The notes under the pieces: model-generated | Database searches by the model: none | Told to the model about the DNA's origin: nothing | What the model saw: only the letters and a program-made list of their open reading frames with translations | Source: Crocinitomicaceae bacterium | GTDB taxonomy: Bacteria > Bacteroidota > Bacteroidia > Flavobacteriales_D > Crocinitomicaceae | Assembly (NCBI GenBank): GCA_024643725.1 | Contig: JAHEMJ010000013.1 | Span: forward strand, 1-64,000 | Reading direction: 5' to 3' | DNA: 64,000 nt | Translations under genes and position numbers: made by a program | Part shown: positions 1,622 through 17,412 of the stretch, in pieces | How the letters are laid out: every line of letters begins with the position of its first letter | Numbering within the stretch: the stretch's first letter is position 1

Positions 1622-1891
1622 ATGAACTCACAAACTCGCTTAAAACTTACACTCTCGGCTGCTGCATTTTTAGCAATAGTCACGCTGCTTTCCATTTATT
1701 CAAAAATGGAAGGTGTCGCTACTGCTAGTATCGCAGGAATCATGACCATTTTATCGGCCTATATCTGGTCGCAAACCACTAGACCCTCAAAAGATGAATA
1801 CGCTCATAAAAATACTCGCAAACAAACAAGTCCAAAAAATACTGTTGCTACTGCTTTTAATAGGCGCAGTTCTGCTGCTTTGGAAAAGTAA
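1622..1891 (+). CDS. small two-helix membrane protein, holin-like candidate
   Basis: 89 residues with two predicted membrane segments, about residues 10-25 and 30-50, then a short basic tail. The last ~98 bases overlap the next gene in another frame, so the tail from about residue 58 is dictated partly by that gene. Its position just before a spanin-like protein and a transglycosylase suggests a lysis role such as holin, but no family is recognised. The start at 1622 is an ATG ten bases after the previous stop. Confidence 0.55.
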   Translation: MNSQTRLKLTLSAAAFLAIVTLLSIYSKMEGVATASIAGIMTILSAYIWSQTTRPSKDEYAHKNTRKQTSPKNTVATAFNRRSSAALEK

Positions 1892-2411
1892 CCAAGGGTT
1901 GAAACAGGATAATGCAAGATTGACAAACAACATAGAAGCCTTGAATACATCAGTAAAATACATACAAACACAAAACGGAAAGCTCGCAGCTCAAACCGAT
2001 GTGTTGCTAGTACGCACTGGTGAGTTAAAAGAACTTTTTCCTGTCCAAGCCAAAACGGTAACGGATATGGGAATTAAATTAAACAGGGCAACGCAGCTAA
2101 GCACTTCGGTGATTGAAACGCAGAAAAATATCATCACCGTAGTTAGAGATAGCATTGTTCACGACACGGTTCGGGTAAAAGTATTTTCCTACAAGGATCA
2201 GTGGTATCAAATCAGCGGAATCAGTGATGAGCAAACCCAGCAATTGAGCATTTTTAGCACAGATACGCTTACGCAGGTTGTTTTCAAAGGAGAAAGAATC
2301 AAGCCCTGGCTTTGGATATTCTCCCCTAGAAAGCTCCAACAAAGAGTAAGCGTTTCTAATCCTAATTCCACCATAAAATATAGCAGTCTTATTCAAATCC
2401 AAAAACAATGA
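1794..2411 (+). CDS. membrane-anchored coiled-coil protein, Rz/i-spanin-like
   Basis: 205 residues: a short basic N-terminus, one strongly hydrophobic segment (residues 14-30, KILLLLLLIGAVLLLW), then a long helical region (about 33-115) with coiled-coil character, then a mixed C-terminal part containing the DSIVHDTVRVKVFSYKDQW stretch. This layout, together with a neighbouring transglycosylase and small membrane protein, resembles inner-membrane spanin subunits of phage lysis cassettes. The family link is by architecture only. It overlaps the preceding gene by 98 bases and the next mini-ORF by four (ATGA). Confidence 0.6.
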   Translation: MNTLIKILANKQVQKILLLLLLIGAVLLLWKSNQGLKQDNARLTNNIEALNTSVKYIQTQNGKLAAQTDVLLVRTGELKELFPVQAKTVTDMGIKLNRATQLSTSVIETQKNIITVVRDSIVHDTVRVKVFSYKDQWYQISGISDEQTQQLSIFSTDTLTQVVFKGERIKPWLWIFSPRKLQQRVSVSNPNSTIKYSSLIQIQKQ

Positions 2412-2547: not shown

Positions 2548-3222
2548 ATGGCAGAGTTAGCAGTTCCAATTCCAATGACCCCACGCATATTTTATCCTGA
2601 AGCAGCATTGCCGCAGAATAAAACAAAGATGGAAACCATTGCCAAAAAGTATTTCAATGAGATTAAGCTCGCTGAGACACTCACCAATGTCCCTGGAGCA
2701 ATAATCCTTTCTATCATTTTCACTGAAAGTGCAGGCAATCCTAGTATTGTAAGCTCGTCAGGCGCTGTGGGTTTGATGCAATTAAAACCACAAACTGGAA
2801 ACGATGTGATTCATTTGGAAAACAAATCCAAAAGGCTGACAGCACCTGAAATTGAGCTGTTGAAAAAGCATTTAGGTGCAAGGGTTAACGGCCCGTTGAA
2901 ACAGCAATACCTATCTCATAAGATCAAGGAAAATAATTACACAGGTAATGTCATGACCCGTGCTGATTTACAAAAGCCAGAACTCAATATTTTGTTAGGA
3001 GCTATGCTTATTGGTATTCTCATAGATCAACATTATGAGCAAGGTGTTTTAAGACTAGATAAGGCGCTGGTTCGCTACAACCAAGGTTACTTTTTTAAAC
3101 CAGGAACAGGAACCGTTGAGCAAGTATTGGATCGCGTAAAAGGTCGCAGCCGCGAGGCGTATTCTTACATCATAAAAGTAGTGGGTAAAAATGGATTACT
3201 AGAAACCCAATCCATGGTATAA
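2548..3222 (+). CDS. lytic transglycosylase (SLT/lysozyme-like fold)
   Basis: 224 residues. IIFTESAGNPSIVSSSGAVG followed by LMQLKP is the classic SLT core: catalytic Glu60 in the ESAGNP motif and the GLMQ strand. A later YNQG motif matches the conserved AYNxG of the family. It cleaves peptidoglycan glycan strands; in this context it may act in host lysis or as a tail-associated enzyme during entry. There is no signal peptide, consistent with holin-dependent export. An insertion of about 60 residues (84-145) between GLMQ and YNQG is longer than usual. Its stop overlaps the next start as TAATG. Confidence 0.82.
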   Translation: MAELAVPIPMTPRIFYPEAALPQNKTKMETIAKKYFNEIKLAETLTNVPGAIILSIIFTESAGNPSIVSSSGAVGLMQLKPQTGNDVIHLENKSKRLTAPEIELLKKHLGARVNGPLKQQYLSHKIKENNYTGNVMTRADLQKPELNILLGAMLIGILIDQHYEQGVLRLDKALVRYNQGYFFKPGTGTVEQVLDRVKGRSREAYSYIIKVVGKNGLLETQSMV

Positions 3223-3980
3223 TGAATCAATTTGAGCTCAATAAACAAATCCAACAGTTGATCCTAAAAAAGGATAAAGCAGGCGAAGCGTATGGTTTCG
3301 ATGAGAAGAAGTTTATCGCTCAGTATGAAGGTTCAGGCGGACAAGGTTCAAAGGGAGCTACTGGCGAAGGTGTGCTGTATGAATTTTTTACGCCTGATTT
3401 TGTTTGTGAGCTCATGTGGAAACTGGCATACCGTTATGGATTTAAAGCTGGTGGAACAGTGCTTGAACCAAGTGTAGGAACGGGCAATTTGCTCAAATGG
3501 GCACCGAATAATTCCAAGTGCTATGGATTTGAAATCAACCCAATATCCAAACGCATCACAGAGATTTTATATCCCGATGCAAAGATTTACGAAGGCTATT
3601 TTGAAACCGCATTTTTACAAGCGCCTCGCTACACGGCAAGACTAAAAGATAAACTCACTTGGCTTGAGGGTTACCCATTTTCATTGATCATTGGCAATCC
3701 ACCCTACGGTAAATACAAAAACAAGTACAGCAGTTATTTCACCAAACCCAAAATGCATCAAATAGAATTGTTTTTTATGCATTACGGATTACAGCTGCTA
3801 AAACCAGGTGGAATAATGGTGTATGTGACGGGTAGTAATTTCTTGCGAAACGGCATCAGCTACCAAAGTGAAAAATTAGAGATTCAAAAGCTAGCGGATA
3901 TTGTCGATGCGTATCGTTTACCTCCTGTTTTCAAATTTTCAAAAGTGCCAACCGACATTATCGTTTTTAAACGCAAATAA
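3222..3980 (+). CDS. DNA adenine-N6 methyltransferase
   Basis: 252 residues. The SAM-binding motif I is VLEPSVGTGNLL and the catalytic motif IV is IIGNPPYGKY, which marks an amino-methyltransferase of the N6-adenine type. There is no recognisable target-recognition domain and no partner endonuclease next to it, so it is probably a solitary phage or element methyltransferase that protects the element or modifies packaged DNA. It is coupled to the previous gene by a one-base TAATG overlap and followed closely by the JAB protein. Confidence 0.85.
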   Translation: MNQFELNKQIQQLILKKDKAGEAYGFDEKKFIAQYEGSGGQGSKGATGEGVLYEFFTPDFVCELMWKLAYRYGFKAGGTVLEPSVGTGNLLKWAPNNSKCYGFEINPISKRITEILYPDAKIYEGYFETAFLQAPRYTARLKDKLTWLEGYPFSLIIGNPPYGKYKNKYSSYFTKPKMHQIELFFMHYGLQLLKPGGIMVYVTGSNFLRNGISYQSEKLEIQKLADIVDAYRLPPVFKFSKVPTDIIVFKRK

Positions 3981-3982
3981 TT

Positions 3983-4741
3983 ATGAAATACAATCAGCCC
4001 AGCATACAACCACAAATGGTATTCGATAAATCATCCTACAGTGATTTGGAAACCCAAATTGATGAGCTTGATGCAGAATTTAAAGTCCGCGAAATCGAAG
4101 TTACTTTCAATAAGGAAGCCTATTTCTTTGGTCAGGTAACGAGCTCCAATGATGTGTACAATTTCCTAAAGGAACAAATCTTGAAAGGCATTGAAGTTCA
4201 GGAGCATTTTATTGCATTGTACCTAAATCAGGCCAACAAAATCATCGGCTACTACCACCATTCAACAGGGACAATCAACGCCACCATGGTGGATACTGAA
4301 ATTGTAGTGGCCGTTGCTCTGAAAACTCTGGCAAAGTCTGTGATTATTTCTCACAATCATCCAAGCGGAAACTTGCAGCCATCAGAGGCAGATAGGCAGC
4401 TTACCCGAAGATTAAAACAATCATTAAAACTCTTTGATGTGTATTTAGTTGACCACATTATCGTCACCAAAAATGGCTACTATTCATTTGCTGAAAAAAG
4501 TGAAAGTTCGCTTTCTGGTGATCAATCAAAAGTGAATCCAATGGAGCAAAAACTGCGTGAAGAGATTCTCAAGCAGCTCAAAAAAGTAACCCAAGCCAAT
4601 GCCCCAAATTTGTTTGTCATGATGCAGTCGCCCCAGGGTTATGAGCAAGTAGAACAAATGGTCATCCGAAAAGTGCTGCATGAGCAAATGGTTCCTGCGG
4701 CCGTAATTCCTATGCTTGAATCTGAAATGGAAATGATCTAG
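3983..4741 (+). CDS. RadC-like JAB/MPN-domain protein
   Basis: 252 residues. The JAMM metal-binding motif ISHNHPSGNLQPSEAD (His-x-His ... Ser ... Asp) is intact, in the context typical of the RadC C-terminal domain; the N-terminal HhH part of full RadC is absent. Members in mobile elements are common and their biochemical role is unresolved. After the JAB domain is a ~70-residue tail that ends LESEMEMI, similar in character to the tails of the next two proteins. It is followed with one-base overlap by a GTG start (TAGTG). Confidence 0.85.
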   Translation: MKYNQPSIQPQMVFDKSSYSDLETQIDELDAEFKVREIEVTFNKEAYFFGQVTSSNDVYNFLKEQILKGIEVQEHFIALYLNQANKIIGYYHHSTGTINATMVDTEIVVAVALKTLAKSVIISHNHPSGNLQPSEADRQLTRRLKQSLKLFDVYLVDHIIVTKNGYYSFAEKSESSLSGDQSKVNPMEQKLREEILKQLKKVTQANAPNLFVMMQSPQGYEQVEQMVIRKVLHEQMVPAAVIPMLESEMEMI

Positions 4742-5391
4742 TGGACACCCAAAGCCCTGTATATCTCAGAGCCCGAATAGATATGATTCGGGATGTGTTA
4801 TCGAAGTCCGATGCAAAGGACTTTCATGTGGCACTTCTTCGAAACGGAGTGTTTCCAAAGGACAGAGATGAAAAAGGCTTGGTGGAAGTTTATGCCAAAC
4901 AAAAGGATTATTCCAATGAACCGTTGAGCTTCACTGAGCTATGTACGTTCAATACCTGGTTTAATTTATACCCCGAAAAAGTGTGTGGGGAAGAGGTGGT
5001 AACGACCAGTAGAGAGTTTCCGATTTCTATCAAAGGAAATGAAACATGGATTACCAATACCATCAATCATGCACTGGGTGATTTTCAATTGCTGTTGGAG
5101 CTACCAGGTGATTGGTACATTGACTACTTCGATCCGAGCAATGAGGATTTCTCCGTGGACTACCGACTGGGAAACTACAAAATACAAATCTTCTCTCATG
5201 GGGTCGATTACAATTTTCAAATACAAAATGGAGACTTCCTACTGGAAAACATGAATTACCGATACATCGAAGATGCTAATGCCCATGCTTTACGATTTAT
5301 GCAATCTAATCCTGTGGCTTTCACAGATGTTTCGACTTTAGAGATGGAGGCATTGGCACTCGAATACGAACTACAATTAAAAAGACTATGA
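4741..5391 (+). CDS. unknown protein of the phage-like block with shared C-terminal tail
   Basis: 216 residues with no recognised domain. It starts at GTG overlapping the previous stop by one base and ends overlapping the next ATG by four (ATGA), so it is translationally coupled on both sides. The middle part is acidic and rich in aromatic residues. The last 18 residues, LEMEALALEYELQLKRL preceded by Thr, closely match the C-terminus of the following helicase-like protein (LELEALALEIELELINF). This suggests a shared docking or targeting peptide. The function is unknown. Confidence 0.7.
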   Translation: MDTQSPVYLRARIDMIRDVLSKSDAKDFHVALLRNGVFPKDRDEKGLVEVYAKQKDYSNEPLSFTELCTFNTWFNLYPEKVCGEEVVTTSREFPISIKGNETWITNTINHALGDFQLLLELPGDWYIDYFDPSNEDFSVDYRLGNYKIQIFSHGVDYNFQIQNGDFLLENMNYRYIEDANAHALRFMQSNPVAFTDVSTLEMEALALEYELQLKRL

Positions 5392-8300
5392 GCTATTTAT
5401 CAGGCATATCAAGCATTCATTCTTTAGGGACATTGAACCCTTATACATCCACAAAAATTAGAGGTAATTCTCAAGTGGTGGAGCGCATCCTAAAACAAGC
5501 AAGCGAACTACAAGGACTTGGCGATACCGAAGGGAAAAAGATTCCCTTTTCTGACGTAGTAGCCAAATACAACAAGGGAATTACCGAACCTGAAATCAAA
5601 GCTTGGGTCTGGTACAAAAGAAAAACTGGCGTTCCCATGAGCGGTTGGGAAACTTACTACTTAAAAGGAACAGGAAAGGCTTTAGAAGAGCAGCTCTTTG
5701 ACTTGGTTCGGGCTGGCGCACTTTTTTACCATGCAGGTGAATTGCTGCCTTTTCCGACCTATACCTATGGCAATATGTACGATAGGTTGACCCAACTTGA
5801 AAATGACAAAGAGGATATTGAAAAACATTTCGGACTAGAAATATGGGAGAATCACAAACAGGTAATTGAAAAAGCAAAGCCTGAATTACTCACTGTTGAA
5901 AATGCCGATGAAAAAGAGCGGCCAATCATTACGGCTATTTCTGATTTTGCTGTTGACCCCCTATTGTTTTATGTAACCAGTGTTCGTGAGGAATACATGG
6001 ACTTAGAAAATGCCGAGGAGCTGAAAAAAGTCAACGGTAAAATCGAACGCAAAAAAGACCGTGAGAAAATCAACATTCGTTTTGACGGTGAAACAAAATA
6101 CACACTGCAACATGTTTTCATCAAGTGGTTGTTCACCTTGAACAATGACACCGATTTTGAAAAAAGTTCCGCCATTGACATTGCCGATTATTACCTGGCA
6201 AACCGATCGCTACGTGATGACAAACTATCCAAGGAAGAAAAAGCAGAGCTGAGAGCTAATGCCCGCATTGAGGGTGAGAAATTGTTCTCTAAATTCCTGC
6301 ATGAGGTCTTGGCCTTTGACGACCAACACAAACTAAACTATGCCTGGAACCGATTGTACAACGGGCAATCCGATATCAATTACTCCAAGGTTCCCATTGG
6401 CTTTGAATGTTCTGCTCGCTTTAAGTCTGGCATTCTACAAATCACAGACATTCAGCGCGAAGGTGTGGCGTTTATGGAAGCCATGGGTTCGGGCATTAAT
6501 GCCTTTGATGTGGGAGTGGGTAAAACCATGACCGCCATTGTGAACCTGGCGCATAACCTGTATTCGGGTAAATGCAAACGACCAATTGTAGTGGTTCCCA
6601 AACCGACTTACAAAAAATGGATGAACGAAATCATTGGTTACAAGGATAAAAAAACGGGTGAATTCGTATCAGGCGTATTGTCTCATACAGGCATTACAGT
6701 AAACGACTGGTATAACCTTGGAACGGACATCATTGATAAAATCAATTTGAATGCGCCTGTGGCCGAACGATCCATTACCATGGTGACATACGAAGGATTC
6801 AAACGCCTGGGATTTGGAGAATCTGTTTCGGATGAGCTATTTACAGAACTGGTAAACATTCTGGGTCAGAGCAAAGAAAAGTCTAGCCGCGATAAAGAAA
6901 TTGAGTACCAAAAATTCAGAGAAATGATTGGCGTGGGATTGAAGAATTCCATTGCCGATATAGACGTGCTTGGTATTGACTATGCGGTGATTGATGAAGC
7001 ACACAGGTGTAAGAATGTATTCGCCTCTGTAAAAAGTGATGATGAAGGAAACAAGCGCTACAACATACAGTCTGCCACCTCTGAAATAGGACAAAAAGCG
7101 TTTTTGATCCTTAGCTTCATTCAGCGCAAATATGGCCGAAATACCATGCTACTGACAGCAACTCCTTTTTCAAACTCGCCACTGGAGATATATTCGATGC
7201 TTTCACTTGTGGCCTATGATTCTTTGCGCGACAACGGTATTTTAAACCTGGATACGTTCTTTGATTTGTTTGTGCTGCCAACCGTAGAATGGGCTGCCAA
7301 CTACAAAGAGGAAATTGTAGAAAAGGAAGTGATCAAAAGTTTCACTAACCGCAGGATTTTACAAAAGCTCATCTACAACCATATCCTATATAAAACGGGT
7401 GAAGAAGCTGGTGTGGTTCGACCAAAAAAAATCAACTTGCCGCTGCTGTATAGTTTTGAAAATGCAAAGGAGCGCTTGACGCAAGACAAGCAGGTGCTTA
7501 CCTACATCAACATGACCCCAAAGCAACGGGAAAATCAAAATGGCATTGTGGCCATGGCGAAAAGTTCTACGCAAGGGAAATTGGATATGGGTAATTTATT
7601 TAGGGCATTGGCGTACAGTTTGGACAATGCACTGTCTCCATATTTATTAAACGGAACACCAGAGGATTACAAAGATTTTGTAGAGCAAAGTCCGAAGATT
7701 GCCTATGTCATGGACTGCATCAAATCAGTAAAAGCATGGCATGAGCAGCACCAAGAAACCGCTAGCGGACAGGTGATATACATGAACCGTGGCAAACTAT
7801 TTTTTCCGCTGATTAAAGAATACTTGGAAAAGGAAGTAGGCTACAAGCGTGGGGTGATGTACGACAAAGTGAAAGTGGATGAAGTAGAAATCATCTCTTC
7901 TGAAATCAACGATACGCGAAAAGAAACCATCAAAGAAGCGTTCCTGGATGGTGTGGTGAAAATCATCATTGGAACCGCCACAATCCGTGAAGGGATTGAT
8001 TTACAAAAACGCGGAACGGTTATTTACAACTGCTATCCTGAATGGAATCCAACGGATATTCGACAGCTGGAAGGCCGAATTTGGCGCCAGGGAAATCAGT
8101 TTCAGTATGTGCGTATTGTGATGCCATTGGTGCAGGACTCCATGGATGTCTTTGTGTTCCAAAAGCTAGAAGAAAAGACCTCACGTATCAATGACATTTG
8201 GTTCAGGGGTGACAGAGGAAACGTGCTGGATTTAGAAAGCATGGATCCTGAGGAGATTAAGCTGGCTCTTATTACCGATGTTGACCGTTTGGTGCGTATG

Positions 8301-9059
8301 TTTTTTGACCAGGCGAAGGAGCAATTGAATCGCGATTACAAAAAAATCGGACTAGCCATTGAGATGCTCAAAGAAGTACAAAGCGATATCAGGGACTATA
8401 AAATTTACCGTGAAAAATCCATTGAAGCCATTCGCAGTTTTTATACGTCATTGTTGGCATCGAATTATTTGGTAGAAACACCCAAAGTAGCGGAAGATGG
8501 CGAAGTGATCAACAAACAATCCAAGAAAGCAAAGGAGCTAAAAGAGGATATTGAAGCGGTACTGAATTCAACGGATCAACAGGACAAGGAAATTCTTGCC
8601 ATCGGTCGAAAAATAGAAAGTTCGTACCAGGTACTTGGCATTTACTTTTCAAACCGCTACTACCTCAATTATTTCAAGGAATATGTAAGCAAGGTGCGAA
8701 AAACAGAACGCACTCTGCTCAAACCAAGAGGATTTTCACTCTCCAGTGATTTAAGTCCTGTAATGGCGCAATACGAAGCGGAGAAACAAGCTGTAATTAA
8801 CCAATCTCAAAGTTATAACGGCGAAGAAAACTCTCCCAAATGGGCGGAGCTTAGACTAGAAATCCAAGCAAAAAAATCAGCATTACAAGTAGAAGGTAGA
8901 AGTGCCCAGGATAGAGCCTCCGAATTTCAGCGCTTGAATTATCTTCTGGAATACCGAACAAACCTGGCTCCAGCTCCAGCAACACCAACATTCAATACAA
9001 GTGAATTAGAGCTCGAAGCTTTAGCCCTTGAAATAGAACTCGAACTTATAAATTTTTAA
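5388..9059 (+). CDS. very large SF2 helicase-like ATPase
   Basis: 1223 residues. A Walker A-like GVGKTMTAI motif near residue 377, a DEAH box (VIDEAHRCKN) near 535, the TATPFSNSP motif III and the motif VI-like RQLEGRIWRQGN near 890 define a Snf2/SF2-type translocase core. The ~350-residue N-terminal extension and a ~270-residue helical C-terminal extension are not recognised. Such proteins are frequent in Bacteroidota phages and elements next to methyltransferases. No methylase motif is visible in this chain. It ends with the Glu/hydrophobic tail shared with the preceding protein. Likely roles are DNA remodelling, replication or anti-restriction; none is proven. Confidence 0.85.
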   Translation: MSYLSGISSIHSLGTLNPYTSTKIRGNSQVVERILKQASELQGLGDTEGKKIPFSDVVAKYNKGITEPEIKAWVWYKRKTGVPMSGWETYYLKGTGKALEEQLFDLVRAGALFYHAGELLPFPTYTYGNMYDRLTQLENDKEDIEKHFGLEIWENHKQVIEKAKPELLTVENADEKERPIITAISDFAVDPLLFYVTSVREEYMDLENAEELKKVNGKIERKKDREKINIRFDGETKYTLQHVFIKWLFTLNNDTDFEKSSAIDIADYYLANRSLRDDKLSKEEKAELRANARIEGEKLFSKFLHEVLAFDDQHKLNYAWNRLYNGQSDINYSKVPIGFECSARFKSGILQITDIQREGVAFMEAMGSGINAFDVGVGKTMTAIVNLAHNLYSGKCKRPIVVVPKPTYKKWMNEIIGYKDKKTGEFVSGVLSHTGITVNDWYNLGTDIIDKINLNAPVAERSITMVTYEGFKRLGFGESVSDELFTELVNILGQSKEKSSRDKEIEYQKFREMIGVGLKNSIADIDVLGIDYAVIDEAHRCKNVFASVKSDDEGNKRYNIQSATSEIGQKAFLILSFIQRKYGRNTMLLTATPFSNSPLEIYSMLSLVAYDSLRDNGILNLDTFFDLFVLPTVEWAANYKEEIVEKEVIKSFTNRRILQKLIYNHILYKTGEEAGVVRPKKINLPLLYSFENAKERLTQDKQVLTYINMTPKQRENQNGIVAMAKSSTQGKLDMGNLFRALAYSLDNALSPYLLNGTPEDYKDFVEQSPKIAYVMDCIKSVKAWHEQHQETASGQVIYMNRGKLFFPLIKEYLEKEVGYKRGVMYDKVKVDEVEIISSEINDTRKETIKEAFLDGVVKIIIGTATIREGIDLQKRGTVIYNCYPEWNPTDIRQLEGRIWRQGNQFQYVRIVMPLVQDSMDVFVFQKLEEKTSRINDIWFRGDRGNVLDLESMDPEEIKLALITDVDRLVRMFFDQAKEQLNRDYKKIGLAIEMLKEVQSDIRDYKIYREKSIEAIRSFYTSLLASNYLVETPKVAEDGEVINKQSKKAKELKEDIEAVLNSTDQQDKEILAIGRKIESSYQVLGIYFSNRYYLNYFKEYVSKVRKTERTLLKPRGFSLSSDLSPVMAQYEAEKQAVINQSQSYNGEENSPKWAELRLEIQAKKSALQVEGRSAQDRASEFQRLNYLLEYRTNLAPAPATPTFNTSELELEALALEIELELINF

Positions 9060-9062
9060 ACC

Positions 9063-10526
9063 ATGCTAAATACGAACAATTACTTTTCAAAAGCCGCAAG
9101 TATCAACTGGGATAGTCTACCCGAAGCCCTTACAAAAGGACATAAACTTGTAGAAGGAGCATCACAAAATAACTGGGCTGCATACAATTCAAACGAAAAT
9201 ATCAAACGCGTTGTTGATGCATATTTCCAAAAGCTAACGGAATACCTGGATAAAAATCCTAGCTCAGTGGTGGCTACTTCAAAGTCATTGCCAACAAAAA
9301 CCGTAAAGTCAAGTCCAAAACCTGCTGCGGCAAAGCCAGCAGCTGCAACGCGAAATATGCCACCTAAAAAAGCAGCGGTTGAAAAAGAACAATACGATAG
9401 CGAAGATGTAGAACTCATTGATACCGATGTTCAATTTATCAAACGTTATGCAGCCATGCATGGAAAGGTTAAAAGTCAGGCTCAAATATTAACTCTCTTA
9501 CACAGTCTGCAAAAAGCCATTATTGAACGCAGAATAGGAAAGGACTCCCCTTACGCCAAGGAGATTGATATGATGCAGAAACAACTGATTTCCTGTTACG
9601 AAAAAATAGGCGACATGGCAGAAATCAAGATTGACAGCAAAAACTTAAAACGCTACCTTGAAATTGCACATAGTCAGGAAGGCATGTTTTCTGTTTCCTT
9701 ATTAAAGTCCTACATCGCACTCAATGGAAAGAAAGATGTAAAAGACAGGTCGCAAAGGTTATTTAACCGCATAAAAAAGGCTGTTGAGCAAGGAAAGATC
9801 ACTAAATCGGACAAGTATGCCGATAAGTTAAATGAAGCCTACCAAACGCTTAAAAACTACATTGACGGTGATTCGGCGATGCTCAATATCAACAAGGCAC
9901 AGCTTAATGGATTAATGGGCATTTTGGGCGAAAACTTGTTCCATCAAAAAAAAAGCCTCAGCGGTTACGACGATGACAATGGAATGATTGTGAGTTCAGG
10001 TGAATTGCTTGCCATGGATTTCCAAACCATAGGCTTACAAGGTCGATACAAAGAACTCATTGGTGATCCGAGTGTAGGTTTCACAGCCATGGTTTACGGG
10101 CTACCAAAGTCTGGAAAATCAACCATGTGCTTGGACTTTGCAAACTACCTAGCAGCAAACCACGGTAAGGTATTGTACTGCGCCATTGAAGAAGGATTTG
10201 GCTATACCCTAAAAGAAAAAATTGAACGCTTAAAAGCGCATCACTCAAACCTGTATATAACCGACCGTGTTCCTGAAAATCTGAATGATTTTAACTTCGT
10301 GTTCATTGATAGCGTTTCCAAAGCAGGAATGGATGTCAACGACATTGACGCATTAAGAAAAATGCACCCTGAAGTCTCTTTTATTTTTATCTACCACACC
10401 ACCAAGGAAGGAAAATTCAAAGGCGTGAATGAACACGCCCATGAAGTTGATGTAATTGTACAGGTTGAAAAGGGAAAAGCAACTTCCACGGGCAGGTTTA
10501 ATGCTGGTGGGGTGATGGAGATTTAA
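9063..10526 (+). CDS. RecA-like AAA ATPase with Lys/Pro/Ala-rich linker
   Basis: 487 residues. Residues 1-70 form a small helical domain; 80-120 is a Pro/Ala/Lys-rich linker; a long helical region follows. The C-terminal ~160 residues are a RecA/RadA-type ATPase: Walker A GLPKSGKST near residue 345, a Walker B-like FNFVFIDSVSKAG strand, and a sensor-like FIFIYHTTKEG. It may load or drive recombination or replication on element DNA. It is the last + gene of the block and meets the downstream - gene tail to tail with a four-base overlap. Confidence 0.78.
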   Translation: MLNTNNYFSKAASINWDSLPEALTKGHKLVEGASQNNWAAYNSNENIKRVVDAYFQKLTEYLDKNPSSVVATSKSLPTKTVKSSPKPAAAKPAAATRNMPPKKAAVEKEQYDSEDVELIDTDVQFIKRYAAMHGKVKSQAQILTLLHSLQKAIIERRIGKDSPYAKEIDMMQKQLISCYEKIGDMAEIKIDSKNLKRYLEIAHSQEGMFSVSLLKSYIALNGKKDVKDRSQRLFNRIKKAVEQGKITKSDKYADKLNEAYQTLKNYIDGDSAMLNINKAQLNGLMGILGENLFHQKKSLSGYDDDNGMIVSSGELLAMDFQTIGLQGRYKELIGDPSVGFTAMVYGLPKSGKSTMCLDFANYLAANHGKVLYCAIEEGFGYTLKEKIERLKAHHSNLYITDRVPENLNDFNFVFIDSVSKAGMDVNDIDALRKMHPEVSFIFIYHTTKEGKFKGVNEHAHEVDVIVQVEKGKATSTGRFNAGGVMEI

Positions 10527-12919: not shown

Positions 12920-13867
12920 CTATAATTTCTTTTCTGATGCGAGTCTCCAATATTGATAGCCTATTGCTGTTAATCTGCAAGATTTAGAATTCATTGCTGC
13001 ATAATACATGTGTTCTTCATCTACAGGTACAACAAGTCCAATTGTGACATATTCTTGAAGTAGTTTAAACGTTTTCACTTTCTGCATATCATGATTTTCA
13101 AAAGTGTCTTCAAATTCAGGGTCCAAATTAAAATGTTCATTTGGGCTAGGAAATAATTCAACAATCATTCTAAGCTTATCAATTGGAACTCGTGGATTTA
13201 TTTTTCTTAATTGAACAAATTTTGAAACATTGGTTTTAAATATAGGTCTTTGATCCCACGCACCTAATGCTTCATCTACATAAGCATAAACACTACCTGG
13301 AGTTACATTCCCTCTTAAATCGGCTGCTCCACCTTCAAATGCATCTAAAAGAAGGGAAGTGAAAACTCCACCACCATTTACTTCTATGGAAGATTCGTTA
13401 TCTCTACAAGCAGTTAAAACTGTAATACCATCGGAAATCTGTGCTAAAGTTGAATCGCCAAAATTAGGATTCCCAAATATTCCTGAATGACAACAATCAA
13501 GAATAATTACTTTGTCTCTTGCACCTGAACGATTAGCTATTTTAAGAATATCATCCATGCTTATTCCTTCATCATAACTTTTATAATCACTAGTTACAAG
13601 ATAACCGCCAGTTGATTTAATTAATCCATGTCCTGAAAAATAAAAAAGAGCTACATCAGATTTTCCTTCAAATAGTTTTTCAATTGCTTCCCGAATCTTA
13701 ACTTTATTAGCAGATTCACCTGGATCAGTTATTAATTTGACACTAAAGTTTGGTGAGCCGTCCGAATGTTTTTCTAAAACATTTGCAATTTCAATTGCAT
13801 CCTTGACACAGCCATTAAGAGGTGCAGAAGGATAATTATTAATTCCTATTACTAGTGCCTTTCTCAT
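12920..13867 (-). CDS. caspase-like protease (peptidase C14), candidate type IV Thoeris effector
   Basis: 315 residues. Residues 1-210 are a caspase/metacaspase fold: start strand ALVIGINNYPSAPLNGCVKD, catalytic His80 in YFSGHG and catalytic Cys126 in LDCCHSG, both intact. The C-terminal ~100 residues form a separate domain ending in AAMNSKSCRLTAIGYQYW, a candidate ligand sensor. It lies three bases downstream of a TIR-like gene, so the two are almost certainly co-translated. From established work on TIR-caspase (type IV Thoeris) defence, the TIR protein makes a cyclic ADP-ribose signal that switches on the protease, which then kills or arrests the infected cell. The enzyme identity is clear; the system assignment is strong inference. 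Confidence 0.88.
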   Translation of the reverse strand: MRKALVIGINNYPSAPLNGCVKDAIEIANVLEKHSDGSPNFSVKLITDPGESANKVKIREAIEKLFEGKSDVALFYFSGHGLIKSTGGYLVTSDYKSYDEGISMDDILKIANRSGARDKVIILDCCHSGIFGNPNFGDSTLAQISDGITVLTACRDNESSIEVNGGGVFTSLLLDAFEGGAADLRGNVTPGSVYAYVDEALGAWDQRPIFKTNVSKFVQLRKINPRVPIDKLRMIVELFPSPNEHFNLDPEFEDTFENHDMQKVKTFKLLQEYVTIGLVVPVDEEHMYYAAMNSKSCRLTAIGYQYWRLASEKKL

Positions 13868-13870
13868 ATT

Positions 13871-14284
13871 TTACGATAACTTTCTAATGCCTGTAATTAT
13901 TGATTCTGTGTTCCAGCCTACTATAAGGTCTGCTGCATCTGTTACAACCTTACTTGTTCTTTCTGAACCCCAAGGTTCAATTGCTAGAATTGGTTTTTTA
14001 ATTGAAAATTCTCTTGTAGCAATTAAAATTTCCTTATTAATCCATTTACTATGTGTGCTATAAACTCCTGACATTAAAATCACAACATGACTTAATTGAA
14101 TTTGCCTCTTAATAGCCTCATACAATAATTTTTCATTTGGTGCATTATGAATAGGGTCGTCTTTAGGCACAGAAAAATTTTTGTACATAAAGTGTGACCT
14201 ATTATCTAGCATGCTAGTTAGCTTTATGTAAGCATCTGAATAATTCCAGGAATGACTAATAAAAAGATTATGTGTTTTTGACAT
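13871..14284 (-). CDS. TIR-like protein (ThsB/DUF1863 type), candidate Thoeris signal synthase
   Basis: 137 residues covering a single TIR-like domain: LFISHSWNYSDAY at the N-terminus, NFSVPKDDPIH in the middle, WINKEI with Trp81 and putative catalytic Glu85, and AIEPWG near the end. This pattern is that of Thoeris ThsB-type TIR proteins, which convert NAD+ into cyclic ADP-ribose-type messengers upon phage infection. The gene lies 23 bases after hsdR and three bases before the caspase-like gene, giving a two-gene TIR-caspase unit embedded in the restriction operon. Confidence 0.87.
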   Translation of the reverse strand: MSKTHNLFISHSWNYSDAYIKLTSMLDNRSHFMYKNFSVPKDDPIHNAPNEKLLYEAIKRQIQLSHVVILMSGVYSTHSKWINKEILIATREFSIKKPILAIEPWGSERTSKVVTDAADLIVGWNTESIITGIRKLS

Positions 14285-14307
14285 CTTTAATTGTTTAAAA
14301 TTATTTT

Positions 14308-17300
14308 TTACGCTCTCAACATCCTTTTGATTGTATCCTGCATCGCATGTTTAAATCCTTCATCCTGAGAAATTAATCGATACAGATCAAGTTCGTTTTT
14401 GCGTTGTTTACCCATGACTTCATCAAAGATTTTACTGAAAGCAATTTCTCTGTTTTGTACATCAGAATTGTCAGCATACTTTTCTTTGAAGTCGCTATGC
14501 TCTTTCATTTTCTGTGCGAGGTTCACAAACTTGGCTCTTTGTTCATCAGGTGTGGCTTCCCAACCTTGAAACCAGCGTTCGTTAAAGCTTTTAATAATTA
14601 AATCCAACTCGTCTTTTTCAGATTCAGCTCCATGAGCACCTCTTGGATTTGGATTCTGTGGGTCAACTTCTGTTTCTGATGCATCAAGGCCTATAGATGT
14701 ATTAAGCTTTACACGTTCTAAACCGTAGGTCGAAAGGTCAACGGAATTTAATAAACCATCTAAGGCATCTTTTTCATTGTCTACAATGATGAGTTTTGGA
14801 ATTAAGAATTTTAAAAACCAAAACAGTTTTTCCCAAGCCAGAACTTCATACGGCATGATGGAAGCCATCTGCCCGTATATTTTTACAAAATGTTTTGCTT
14901 TAATTTTATAATCTGCTTTTGCCTTGTCTTCTAACTCTAAAGTTGTATTAAATCTTTCAGCAGCAATATCAATTATCGGACTTAACTCTTGGGCATTTAC
15001 CCCTTTAAAATACTTTTCTACAAAATCTTCTACTTCACTCCATTCATAAACACCTGCATCATCCAAATTTGATTTTAATTCGTGAAGCACATTGATGTCT
15101 GTAGCTTTACTTAATGAGGTAGCAGTATAGAATGGGTCGAATGATTTCTTAATATCTTCAGTTGCATTGTAAAAATCAAGAATGAATAAATCTTCGGTTT
15201 TCTTTCCGAGTTTATCAGATGAACGATTTAATCTTGATAGAGCCTGAACAGCAATTACACCTTGCAGTTTTTTATCGACATACATGGCGGTTAATTTGGG
15301 TTGGTCATAACCTGTCAGATATTTATTTGCCACTACTAAAATTCGATATTCGTCCATATCAACATAACGAGCAATCTTGTCGCTGATATATCCAGGGTCT
15401 GTTGGTTTAGCTGTGTCAAGATGAGCAGGAAAGTCATTGATACTTTCCTCCGTATATTCAATTCCTTTTATTTTTTTAACTCCTGAAAAAGCAATTGCAA
15501 TCCTAAATGGATTTCCTCTTTCTTCAAGTAATGTTTTTAAAGAAAAATAATAGTTAATTGCGGATTCAATGCTTTGAGTAGCAACAATTGCTTTGGCTTT
15601 GCCTTTTAGTTTTTTGGTGTTTACCAATTTCGTTACAAAATGCTCCAGCATAATGTCCGCTTTAGTAGCAATGGTTTGCTTGTTTTGCTCTACATAGGTT
15701 CTTAGCTTCTTTTGAGCTTTTATAGAATCAAACAGTGGGTTCTCTTGAATTGACTTTTCAATTTCGTAGTAACTTTTGTAGGTTGTGTAATTAGCAAGCA
15801 CATCTAATATAAAACCTTCTTCAATGGCTTGTTTCATAGAATACAAATGAAAAGGCTTATATTTTCCATCGGCTTGTTTTACGCCAAAACGTTCTAGTGT
15901 ATTATTCTTAGGTGTTGCAGTAAAAGCCAGATATGATGCGTTACCACGCATTTTACGGGAACGCATGGCTTCTAATATCTTGTCTTGTGGGTCTTCGTCT
16001 TCTTCTTCATTCTCATCTGAAGTATTGCCCATAGCTTGGTTCATTTTACCTGCTGCTGTTCCACTTTGACTGCTGTGTGCTTCATCAATGATCACAGCAA
16101 ATCTTTTATCGCTTAAATCGGCAATGCCATCAACAATAAACGGAAACTTCTGAATTGTGGTAATAATTATTTTCTTTCCACTTTCTAAACTTTCTTTTAG
16201 CTCCTTAGATGAATAGGCAGGAGCTACAATGTTTTTTACTTCCGAAAATTCTTTGATGTTTTCTCGTAGCTGTTTGTCTAATAATCTTCTGTCAGTAACT
16301 ACAATTACCGAATCAAACAAAGGATTGGAAATGCCTTTGCTACCTGGTATTGTATCAGTTGCAGGGTATGTTTCAATCAGTTGATAGGCAGCCCAAGTAA
16401 TGGAATTAGATTTGCCAGAACCGGCCGAATGTTGTATTAAATAAGTTTGCCCAACGCCTTTTTTACTGGCATCCGAAATAAGTTTTCGCACCACATCCAA
16501 TTGGTGGTAACGGGGGAAATACAAGGTTTTCTTGTTTAATGGGTCGGTATCTTTTCCATCAAAACGAACAAAATGCTGAATAATATTGGCAACGCTGTTT
16601 CGTGTAAATATTTCTTCCCACAAATAAGCTGTTTTATGACCGAATGTATTGGGTGGATTTCCTTTTCCAAATAAGGGTTCTCGCTGCCCTAAATTAAAAG
16701 GTAAGAAGTAAGTGCTTGCACCATTCAACTTGGTGGTCATATACACTTCATCGGTATCAACAGCAAAGTGAACAATGCAACGCCCAAAGTTTAATAAGGG
16801 CTGCGTAATATCTCTTTTGTATTTGTATTGATTTTGTCCATGCACCTTTGCATTCTGACCTGTCCAATGATTTTTTAATTCCATGGTGGCAAAGGGTAAG
16901 CCGTTTACAAAAAGCACCATGTCTATTTCTTCGCCAGTATTGGTTAAGGAGTAACGAAGCTGACGGGTAGAACTAAATTGATTGCTTTCAAAATTTTCCT
17001 TCACCGTTTCGCTACTGCTGGCTAATGGCAAAGGATACATTAGGGTAAAGTGTGCATCATCTACATCTAAGCCTTTACGAAATGAACGAAGGATACCGTA
17101 TTTTTTTATCATACGGTCTAAGCGTTCCAATATTTTTAATTTCCAATCGCTTTGTTTTTGTAGTTTGGCTAATTCTTCTTTTTGGGTGCTTTGTAAAAAA
17201 TCCCAAAAGCGCTGTTCATCAATTGCATACTTCGCATTATAATCTTCCGGCAAGCCAATGTAGTAGCCATTACCACTGCGATACAATTCTGCGCGTTCAT

Positions 17301-17412
17301 TCACTGTATTGAAAGCAATATTTTGCTCTTTCAACTCTTCAAGGCAAGTACCTGTAAGTTTTTTTTCTATGGCTGACTCTAGAGCTTGTTCGTTGGTTTT
17401 AGATAGACTCAT
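14308..17412 (-). CDS. hsdR: type I restriction enzyme R subunit
   Basis: 1034 residues, the usual length. The N-terminal nuclease domain carries the PD-(D/E)xK signature (EIDMVLFVNGLPFATMELK). The motor has Walker A (SAGSGKSNSI), the DEAH box (VIIDEAHSSQSG) and TATPKNNT. The C-terminal helical domain would contact the methylase complex. HsdR translocates and cuts unmodified DNA with HsdM and HsdS. Its start overlaps the end of the DUF4062 gene by 14 bases, so all belong to one operon. No inactivating change is visible. Confidence 0.95.
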   Translation of the reverse strand: MSLSKTNEQALESAIEKKLTGTCLEELKEQNIAFNTVNERAELYRSGNGYYIGLPEDYNAKYAIDEQRFWDFLQSTQKEELAKLQKQSDWKLKILERLDRMIKKYGILRSFRKGLDVDDAHFTLMYPLPLASSSETVKENFESNQFSSTRQLRYSLTNTGEEIDMVLFVNGLPFATMELKNHWTGQNAKVHGQNQYKYKRDITQPLLNFGRCIVHFAVDTDEVYMTTKLNGASTYFLPFNLGQREPLFGKGNPPNTFGHKTAYLWEEIFTRNSVANIIQHFVRFDGKDTDPLNKKTLYFPRYHQLDVVRKLISDASKKGVGQTYLIQHSAGSGKSNSITWAAYQLIETYPATDTIPGSKGISNPLFDSVIVVTDRRLLDKQLRENIKEFSEVKNIVAPAYSSKELKESLESGKKIIITTIQKFPFIVDGIADLSDKRFAVIIDEAHSSQSGTAAGKMNQAMGNTSDENEEEDEDPQDKILEAMRSRKMRGNASYLAFTATPKNNTLERFGVKQADGKYKPFHLYSMKQAIEEGFILDVLANYTTYKSYYEIEKSIQENPLFDSIKAQKKLRTYVEQNKQTIATKADIMLEHFVTKLVNTKKLKGKAKAIVATQSIESAINYYFSLKTLLEERGNPFRIAIAFSGVKKIKGIEYTEESINDFPAHLDTAKPTDPGYISDKIARYVDMDEYRILVVANKYLTGYDQPKLTAMYVDKKLQGVIAVQALSRLNRSSDKLGKKTEDLFILDFYNATEDIKKSFDPFYTATSLSKATDINVLHELKSNLDDAGVYEWSEVEDFVEKYFKGVNAQELSPIIDIAAERFNTTLELEDKAKADYKIKAKHFVKIYGQMASIMPYEVLAWEKLFWFLKFLIPKLIIVDNEKDALDGLLNSVDLSTYGLERVKLNTSIGLDASETEVDPQNPNPRGAHGAESEKDELDLIIKSFNERWFQGWEATPDEQRAKFVNLAQKMKEHSDFKEKYADNSDVQNREIAFSKIFDEVMGKQRKNELDLYRLISQDEGFKHAMQDTIKRMLRA

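Follow-up and report, generated by a model that had tools for sequence, protein, structure and literature searches.

A short two-faced peptide that ends two adjacent, unrelated proteins in the genome of a Crocinitomicaceae bacterium can be regarded, on the sequences compared here, as established to be a constrained, portable and element-specific tag on several DNA-handling enzymes of a provirus family. Our leading reading, which we hold tentatively and with a little less than even confidence, is that the peptide forms a helical docking tag recognized by a common receptor, and that its most likely role is to load DarB-type anti-defence enzymes into virions. The stretch of DNA analyzed (the window, 64,000 nucleotides) begins at base 1 of a 293,846-base contig, within a fibre-like gene, and the left part of the element has thus been cut away; the capsid part is absent from the window. 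The features on which the argument draws are collected in Table 1, where the open reading frames (ORFs) are mechanical calls.

Table 1. Genes and tail features of the provirus block in the window
Feature	Position	Strand	Remarks
Fibre-like protein, truncated by contig start	3..755	+	phrog_32345 tail fibre
DUF6549 / phrog_14010 protein	1794..2411	+	Family matches
Lytic transglycosylase (SLT)	2548..3222	+	PF01464; no tag
N6-adenine methyltransferase, same module, untagged in window	3222..3980	+	PF07669; PHROGs 1685/10089; counterpart tagged in G818, G843
RadC/JAB protein	3983..4741	+	PF04002; end LESEMEMI (4715-4738), not tag
216-aa protein	4741..5391	+	N-terminal domain, optional ~90-aa domain, tag
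Tag of 216-aa protein, LEMEALALEYELQLKRL	5338..5388	+	17 codons, stop 5389-5391; score 28.4; kept in 22 relatives
SNF2-type helicase, 1223 aa, DarB-like class	5388..9059	+	PF00176, PF00271; PHROGs 1685, 11801, 10089
Variable linker ahead of helicase tag, TNLAPAPATPTFNTSE	8958..9005	+	32% pairwise identity vs 89% in tag
Helicase tag, LELEALALEIELELINF	9006..9056	+	17 codons, stop 9057-9059; score 42.7; kept in relatives
RadA/Sak4-like ATPase, untagged, possible receptor	9063..10526	+	PF13479; phrog_6891/124

The initial annotation had proposed that three consecutive proteins, encoded in the order RadC/JAB protein, 216-aa protein and helicase with overlaps of 1 and 4 nt, share a C-terminal peptide. 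Its letters and positions for the three C-termini were exact, and the sharing stands for the 216-aa protein, which has no match in Pfam, PHROGs or NCBIfam, and the SNF2 helicase, whose tails are identical at 11 of 17 residues. By a position-specific score trained on the helicase tails of relatives, these two lead the 154 ORFs of the window and the next-best reaches 6.0; when the C-termini of all fetched loci (2,658 distinct sequences) were scored, 73 reached 14 or more and the range 10-14 was empty. The coding pattern for EALALELEL matches once in the window and not at all in shuffles. The two tails are not the product of a recent DNA duplication, because the same codon is used at only 4 of the 11 shared residues. 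The third protein does not belong with them: the RadC/JAB end scores -3.2 (rank 18), the RadC relatives end in LETELEMV, LEQELEMI, IESDLDML and the like with no variable linker ahead, and LESEMEMI is, by this context, part of the conserved end of the RadC domain, which rules it out as a tag bearer.

The tail is held far more tightly than the sequence around it. Among distinct helicase relatives, mean pairwise identity is 89% over the 15-residue tail; the linker reaches 32%, and the final 60 residues of the core 68%. The ratio of nonsynonymous to synonymous codon differences is 0.24 in the tail versus 0.85 in the core; these ratios come from pairwise counts, which are not independent, and for L044, one of the 32 rows, the internal copy was used. 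The tag follows the pattern h-c-h-c-A-x-A-h (h, hydrophobic; c, charged) over 15-17 residues. The 216-aa protein also occurs in a 127-aa form, which is without the domain of about 90 residues and keeps the tail; in L019, a different insert occupies the site of that domain. Each tail has a significant hydrophobic periodicity (0.0002-0.014 of shuffles), and moment analysis does not distinguish a two-faced helix from a strand with a twist of 160 degrees, since the second harmonic of 100 degrees is 160. AlphaFold2, given 22 sequences, models the tail of the 216-aa protein as a helix (197-215, pLDDT ~73) preceded by a linker of lower confidence. On this model, which is of moderate confidence, the tag is probably alpha-helical, with the linker as a flexible tether. 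As a separate observation, the helicase frames of L019 (10001-13939) and L031 (3273-6889) are broken, with the L019 tail in a short ORF of its own downstream, which is either genuine decay or assembly error.

If such tails occurred as often in random chromosomal proteins as in this gene block, the idea of a common signal would be refuted, as the initial annotation had recognized. The scans do not refute it. Seven matches to the coding pattern were found in 86 genomes of the genus, all seven at the C-terminus of this element's helicase; the elements are related by descent and such counts are not independent. Across 396 genomes of the phylum there were also seven matches, namely one in this genome, one in G232, two in G247 and three that are probably chance. 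A homologue of the capsid candidate described below occurs in three genomes, G232 and G247 among them, and the matches in these two likewise lie at helicase C-termini. A shorter pattern is insufficient as proof phylum-wide, because its reversed control gives 9 matches in the 396 genomes. These background rates derive from pattern and protein searches. In IMG/VR, the pattern EALALELELEL found one GC-rich match, taken as chance, and EA[EQ]AL found 22, most of which belong to an unrelated internal repeat family; two are true tagged helicases, on two metagenomic viral contigs (L179; L185, the same as L119).

The tail is missing from several counterparts of the tagged proteins. It is present neither on the SNF2 homologues of G017, G019, a Chryseobacterium plasmid bearing conjugation genes and Leptospira phage LE1 nor on the Strawberry-notch homologue in the portal-bearing Bacteroides phage BS-TP4. 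The related provirus in G286 has virion genes, no recognized helicase and no tail, and none of the virion proteins inspected in copies of the element is tagged. Queries of IMG/VR with the helicase and the 234-aa capsid candidate, and of the phage collection with the 234-aa and 216-aa proteins, returned nothing, and our literature search found no paper containing the peptide strings in such a context. It should be noted that the relatives are mostly metagenome bins, so their host names are uncertain; for example, helicase copies that are 71-99% identical (L002-L035) lie in bins named Chitinophagaceae, Flavobacterium, Crocinitomicaceae and others, which reflects either a broad host range or mis-binning.

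Within the provirus family, the tag moves between proteins. It is borne by the SNF2 helicase, the 216-aa protein, a Strawberry-notch helicase, a separate methyltransferase (G818) and an LPD1-domain protein (G843). The same type of provirus in G232, G247 and further genomes of the class has a Strawberry-notch helicase in place of the SNF2 enzyme, with a tail of the same kind at its end; this helicase is usually fused to the methyltransferase and sometimes to RadC. G818 encodes the methyltransferase separately, with a tail of its own, and in G843 the methyltransferase, the helicase and the LPD1-domain protein are each tagged, at or close to the end. Fused proteins keep tag copies at their junctions in L044 (an SNF2 version, in which the 216-aa protein is joined to the helicase), G247, G720, G768, G677 and G700; methylase and helicase are fused in G232, G247 and G768, and the junction copy of G232 has decayed. 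The description of the tail as C-terminal is therefore right for both window proteins and not strictly so for the family, where fused relatives carry internal copies. The domains are shuffled in L130 (G768:C41), where RadC is C-terminal behind the helicase and an internal tag copy stands immediately ahead of it.

The tags of an element also change together. Basic tags were found in G700, G677 and G843 (LRLRARALKIKLLLAI, LKLKAKALLLLELEAA and VKLRAKAILILQKQM, respectively), with the h-c-h-c-A-x-A spacing retained and E changed to K/R. G700 and G677 have two basic copies each and G843 has three, with no acidic copy within any of these elements. The basic-tag helicases form one clade nested among the acidic ones (helicase tree, 87/88), and the reversal is therefore best read as a single event that altered several tags together. 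Such a concerted change is expected if the tags share one partner, and it is likely that all tags of one element bind one shared receptor. When a charge-complementary receptor was sought, no element protein inspected was found to flip its sign alongside the tag; the partner may read the Ala/Leu face instead of the charges. A portable tail, a variable linker, at least four kinds of protein, no tagged chromosomal protein in the genus and a coordinated reversal together strongly support the earlier suggestion of a common docking signal on unrelated proteins.

The host element is likely a tailless provirus. Its organization is best seen in G084, which has long flanks and where virion, lysis and enzyme genes lie on one strand upstream of the helicase, in the order small membrane-anchored proteins, transglutaminase-like protein (a weak match), 234-aa protein, glucosaminidase, fibre-like protein, transglycosylase, methyltransferase, RadC, the counterpart of the 216-aa protein, helicase and ATPase. 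Ten proteins of this run upstream of the helicase were searched and neither a terminase nor a portal was found; no typical packaging ATPase was recognized in the element. The 234-aa protein is modelled as helices plus a jelly roll (pLDDT 71), and its best solved match is the capsid protein of Sulfolobus polyhedral virus 1 (E 2.8e-4, TM 0.44/0.55), followed by capsids of large DNA viruses, making it a candidate single-jelly-roll capsid protein. The missing left part of the element was not found elsewhere in the Crocinitomicaceae genome, where searches with the transglutaminase-like protein and with the capsid candidate gave no matches. A serine-recombinase gene (Pfam) adjoins the module in G247, and unclassified candidates lie at the equivalent site in G232 and G671. 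The family is undescribed, and a search of 50,697 phage records suggests that it has no close relatives among them.

Several further observations concern the element and its surroundings. Both G247 copies (L108-L115; G247:C3 40-120 kb and 152-222 kb) are split, with recombinase, ATPase and helicase on one strand and the virion genes on the opposite strand about 25-35 kb from the helicase part, ordinary host genes lying between. In the transglutaminase-like protein of L068 (4820-6616; a weak match), residues 117-168 include DCDC, QHVYV and VIDG, arranged as in a Cys-His-Asp triad, and judging from these motifs it could be an active virion enzyme. This protein and its relatives have a conserved Lys-rich end with TVKTVKLF-like last residues after a variable stretch, and the protein at 6636-7178 of L068 and its relatives have a conserved acidic end with (Y)IEII, again after a variable stretch. 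In the fibre region of the window, positions 775-1611 encode a protein with an intein/Hint-like domain (weak PF14890, TIGR01445; PHROG 38766, virion structural protein); a homologue occupies the equivalent site in L005, and other relatives have there a short protein without this domain. To the right of the provirus block, at 12920-17412, caspase-like, TIR-like and type I restriction HsdR-like proteins were recognized by eye, and these genes adjoining the element are possibly a defence cluster.

Loading of the tagged enzymes into particles is plausible on genomic grounds, because their genes follow same-strand virion and lysis genes, because they are homologous to the P1 DarB class, and because the tail is confined to this provirus family. 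By homology, the tagged enzymes probably have an anti-defence role. In the mechanism that we propose, DarB-class DNA-handling enzymes would bear a probable helix of about 15-17 residues on a flexible linker, through which the tagged proteins of an element would bind one receptor encoded by that element, most likely a component of the particle during assembly or a chaperone that assists it. The methyltransferase, helicase and partners would thereby be packed into the virion, travel to the next cell along with the DNA and protect the incoming DNA there, as DarB does in P1. The precedent of P1 DarB, which is packaged via a 30-residue peptide, supports this reading. Against it stand the position of the tag, C-terminal or internal where the P1 and T4 signals are N-terminal, the RadA-like ATPase, which is linked to the tag as tightly as the virion genes are, the untagged RadC and SLT proteins, the failure to find a conserved element protein that flips charge with the tag, and the capsid part missing from the window. 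A broader version, in which this Bacteroidota provirus family, undescribed and probably tailless, would draw on a single exchangeable peptide code to bring varying sets of anti-defence enzymes into its particles and in which the acidic and basic versions could be non-interchangeable addresses, seems to us on the doubtful side.

The linkage of the ATPase gives rise to the main rival, which we consider a distinct possibility without expecting it to be correct. Here the tag would build an intracellular enzyme complex on a hub, in the simplest case the adjacent RadA-like ATPase, and a polyvalent protein would be rebuilt from separate chains without packaging. Wherever the flank is visible, the ATPase gene lies immediately after the tagged helicase or one gene off, and its homologues adjoin Strawberry-notch versions as well as SNF2 versions; moreover, the tags sit on pieces of a module that is fused in other elements. 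However, several fused proteins still keep two tags, which mere joining of chains would not need. The N-terminal part of the ATPase is basic in acidic-tag and basic-tag elements alike, and charge pairing thus does not track the reversal.

Self-pairing of the tag, in which coiled-coil formation or stacking of strands would bind tagged proteins directly to each other, is improbable in our judgment. Two hydrophobic faces separated by charged stripes and multiple tagged proteins in one element would suit such pairing, but the sign of the charge is uniform among the copies of an element, which argues against tag-tag contacts, and there is one good tag per protein in the L119 element, L671-type fusions and others. 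Slightly less credible again is a processing or degradation signal, with the tail either marking domain borders for protease cleavage or acting as a degron at the C-terminus. Internal copies do occur at domain junctions, some Strawberry-notch versions end in LAA or FAA (LELLAA, LNFAA), and the weakly matched transglutaminase-like virion protein has Cys, His and Asp in a plausible order. Yet window-type ends are INF, KRL, LSF and similar, those of the window itself being KRL and INF rather than the LAA of an ssrA-like degron, and a two-faced constraint over 15 residues together with a charge reversal exceeds what a cleavage site or degron needs. Chance, or the composition of Leu/Glu-rich helix ends, is very improbable as the source of the resemblance: a look-alike does end a ClpP-like protease in a viral contig (DFEAEALRIELELLAI; L181 3735-4418), judged to be chance, and the reversed control of the shorter pattern has its matches, but the contrast in constraint between tag and linker contradicts it, and the restriction to one element family and the coordinated changes argue against it.

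If the tag loads cargo, as we tentatively prefer, it would be a shared address for anti-defence proteins of the kind that the P1 authors sought without success among the Dar proteins. The injected effectors of this provirus family would then be findable from sequence alone, and the peptide would be a candidate handle for placing chosen proteins in bacterial virus particles. Even if it serves in assembly instead, the tag would exemplify polyvalent proteins that are split and rejoined with docking retained.

Known systems resemble the provirus or its tag in part. Tailless membrane-containing jelly-roll viruses, such as Sulfolobus polyhedral virus 1 and the double-jelly-roll groups (PMC5894146), may resemble the element in its capsid candidate, which is modelled as a jelly roll, and in its several small membrane proteins; no sequence relatives of the provirus were found in the phage collection and no typical packaging ATPase was recognized. 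PLxRFG-motif phage proteins offer another named short motif on phage polyvalent proteins, and one weak helicase match bears that name, but the sequence of the motif and the viruses differ. In encapsulin systems, unrelated cargoes encoded near the shell gene carry a short C-terminal peptide behind a flexible linker. The provirus tag is likewise short, C-terminal, preceded by a flexible linker and present on unrelated proteins, whereas its shell candidate is a single jelly roll and the tag functions, or at least survives, internally; no encapsulin name was among the family matches obtained for proteins of the element.

The closest comparisons are with polyvalent proteins and with P1. In the parts consulted of the account of polyvalent proteins (PMC5512222), the same domains appear: an adenine methylase with an SNF2 or Strawberry-notch helicase, RadC, RadA/SMS and LPD1. 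The DarB-like pairing of that account is found in the window, with methylase and helicase in one gene run, and so are the RadC and RadA-like partner domains, with LPD1 in G843. Polyvalent proteins are defined there by at least two domains per polypeptide, an arrangement seen in relatives; in the window the domains are separate genes, hence the same module in split form and not itself a polyvalent protein. Those parts mention no shared tag, whereas the separate genes of the window are linked by a common one. P1 DarB and the T4 internal proteins likewise join a short terminal peptide to a large anti-restriction protein, of the methylase/helicase class in the case of DarB (PMC9024508). The first 30 residues of DarB are enough for capsid targeting, the peptide alone brings a fluorescent protein into the capsid, and the authors' search for a sequence that the Dar proteins have in common was unsuccessful (PMC9024508). 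The P1 and T4 signals are N-terminal, while the putative loading tag of the provirus is C-terminal or internal in every case; unlike the P1 Dar signals, it is common to several proteins, and it comes in both acidic and basic forms.
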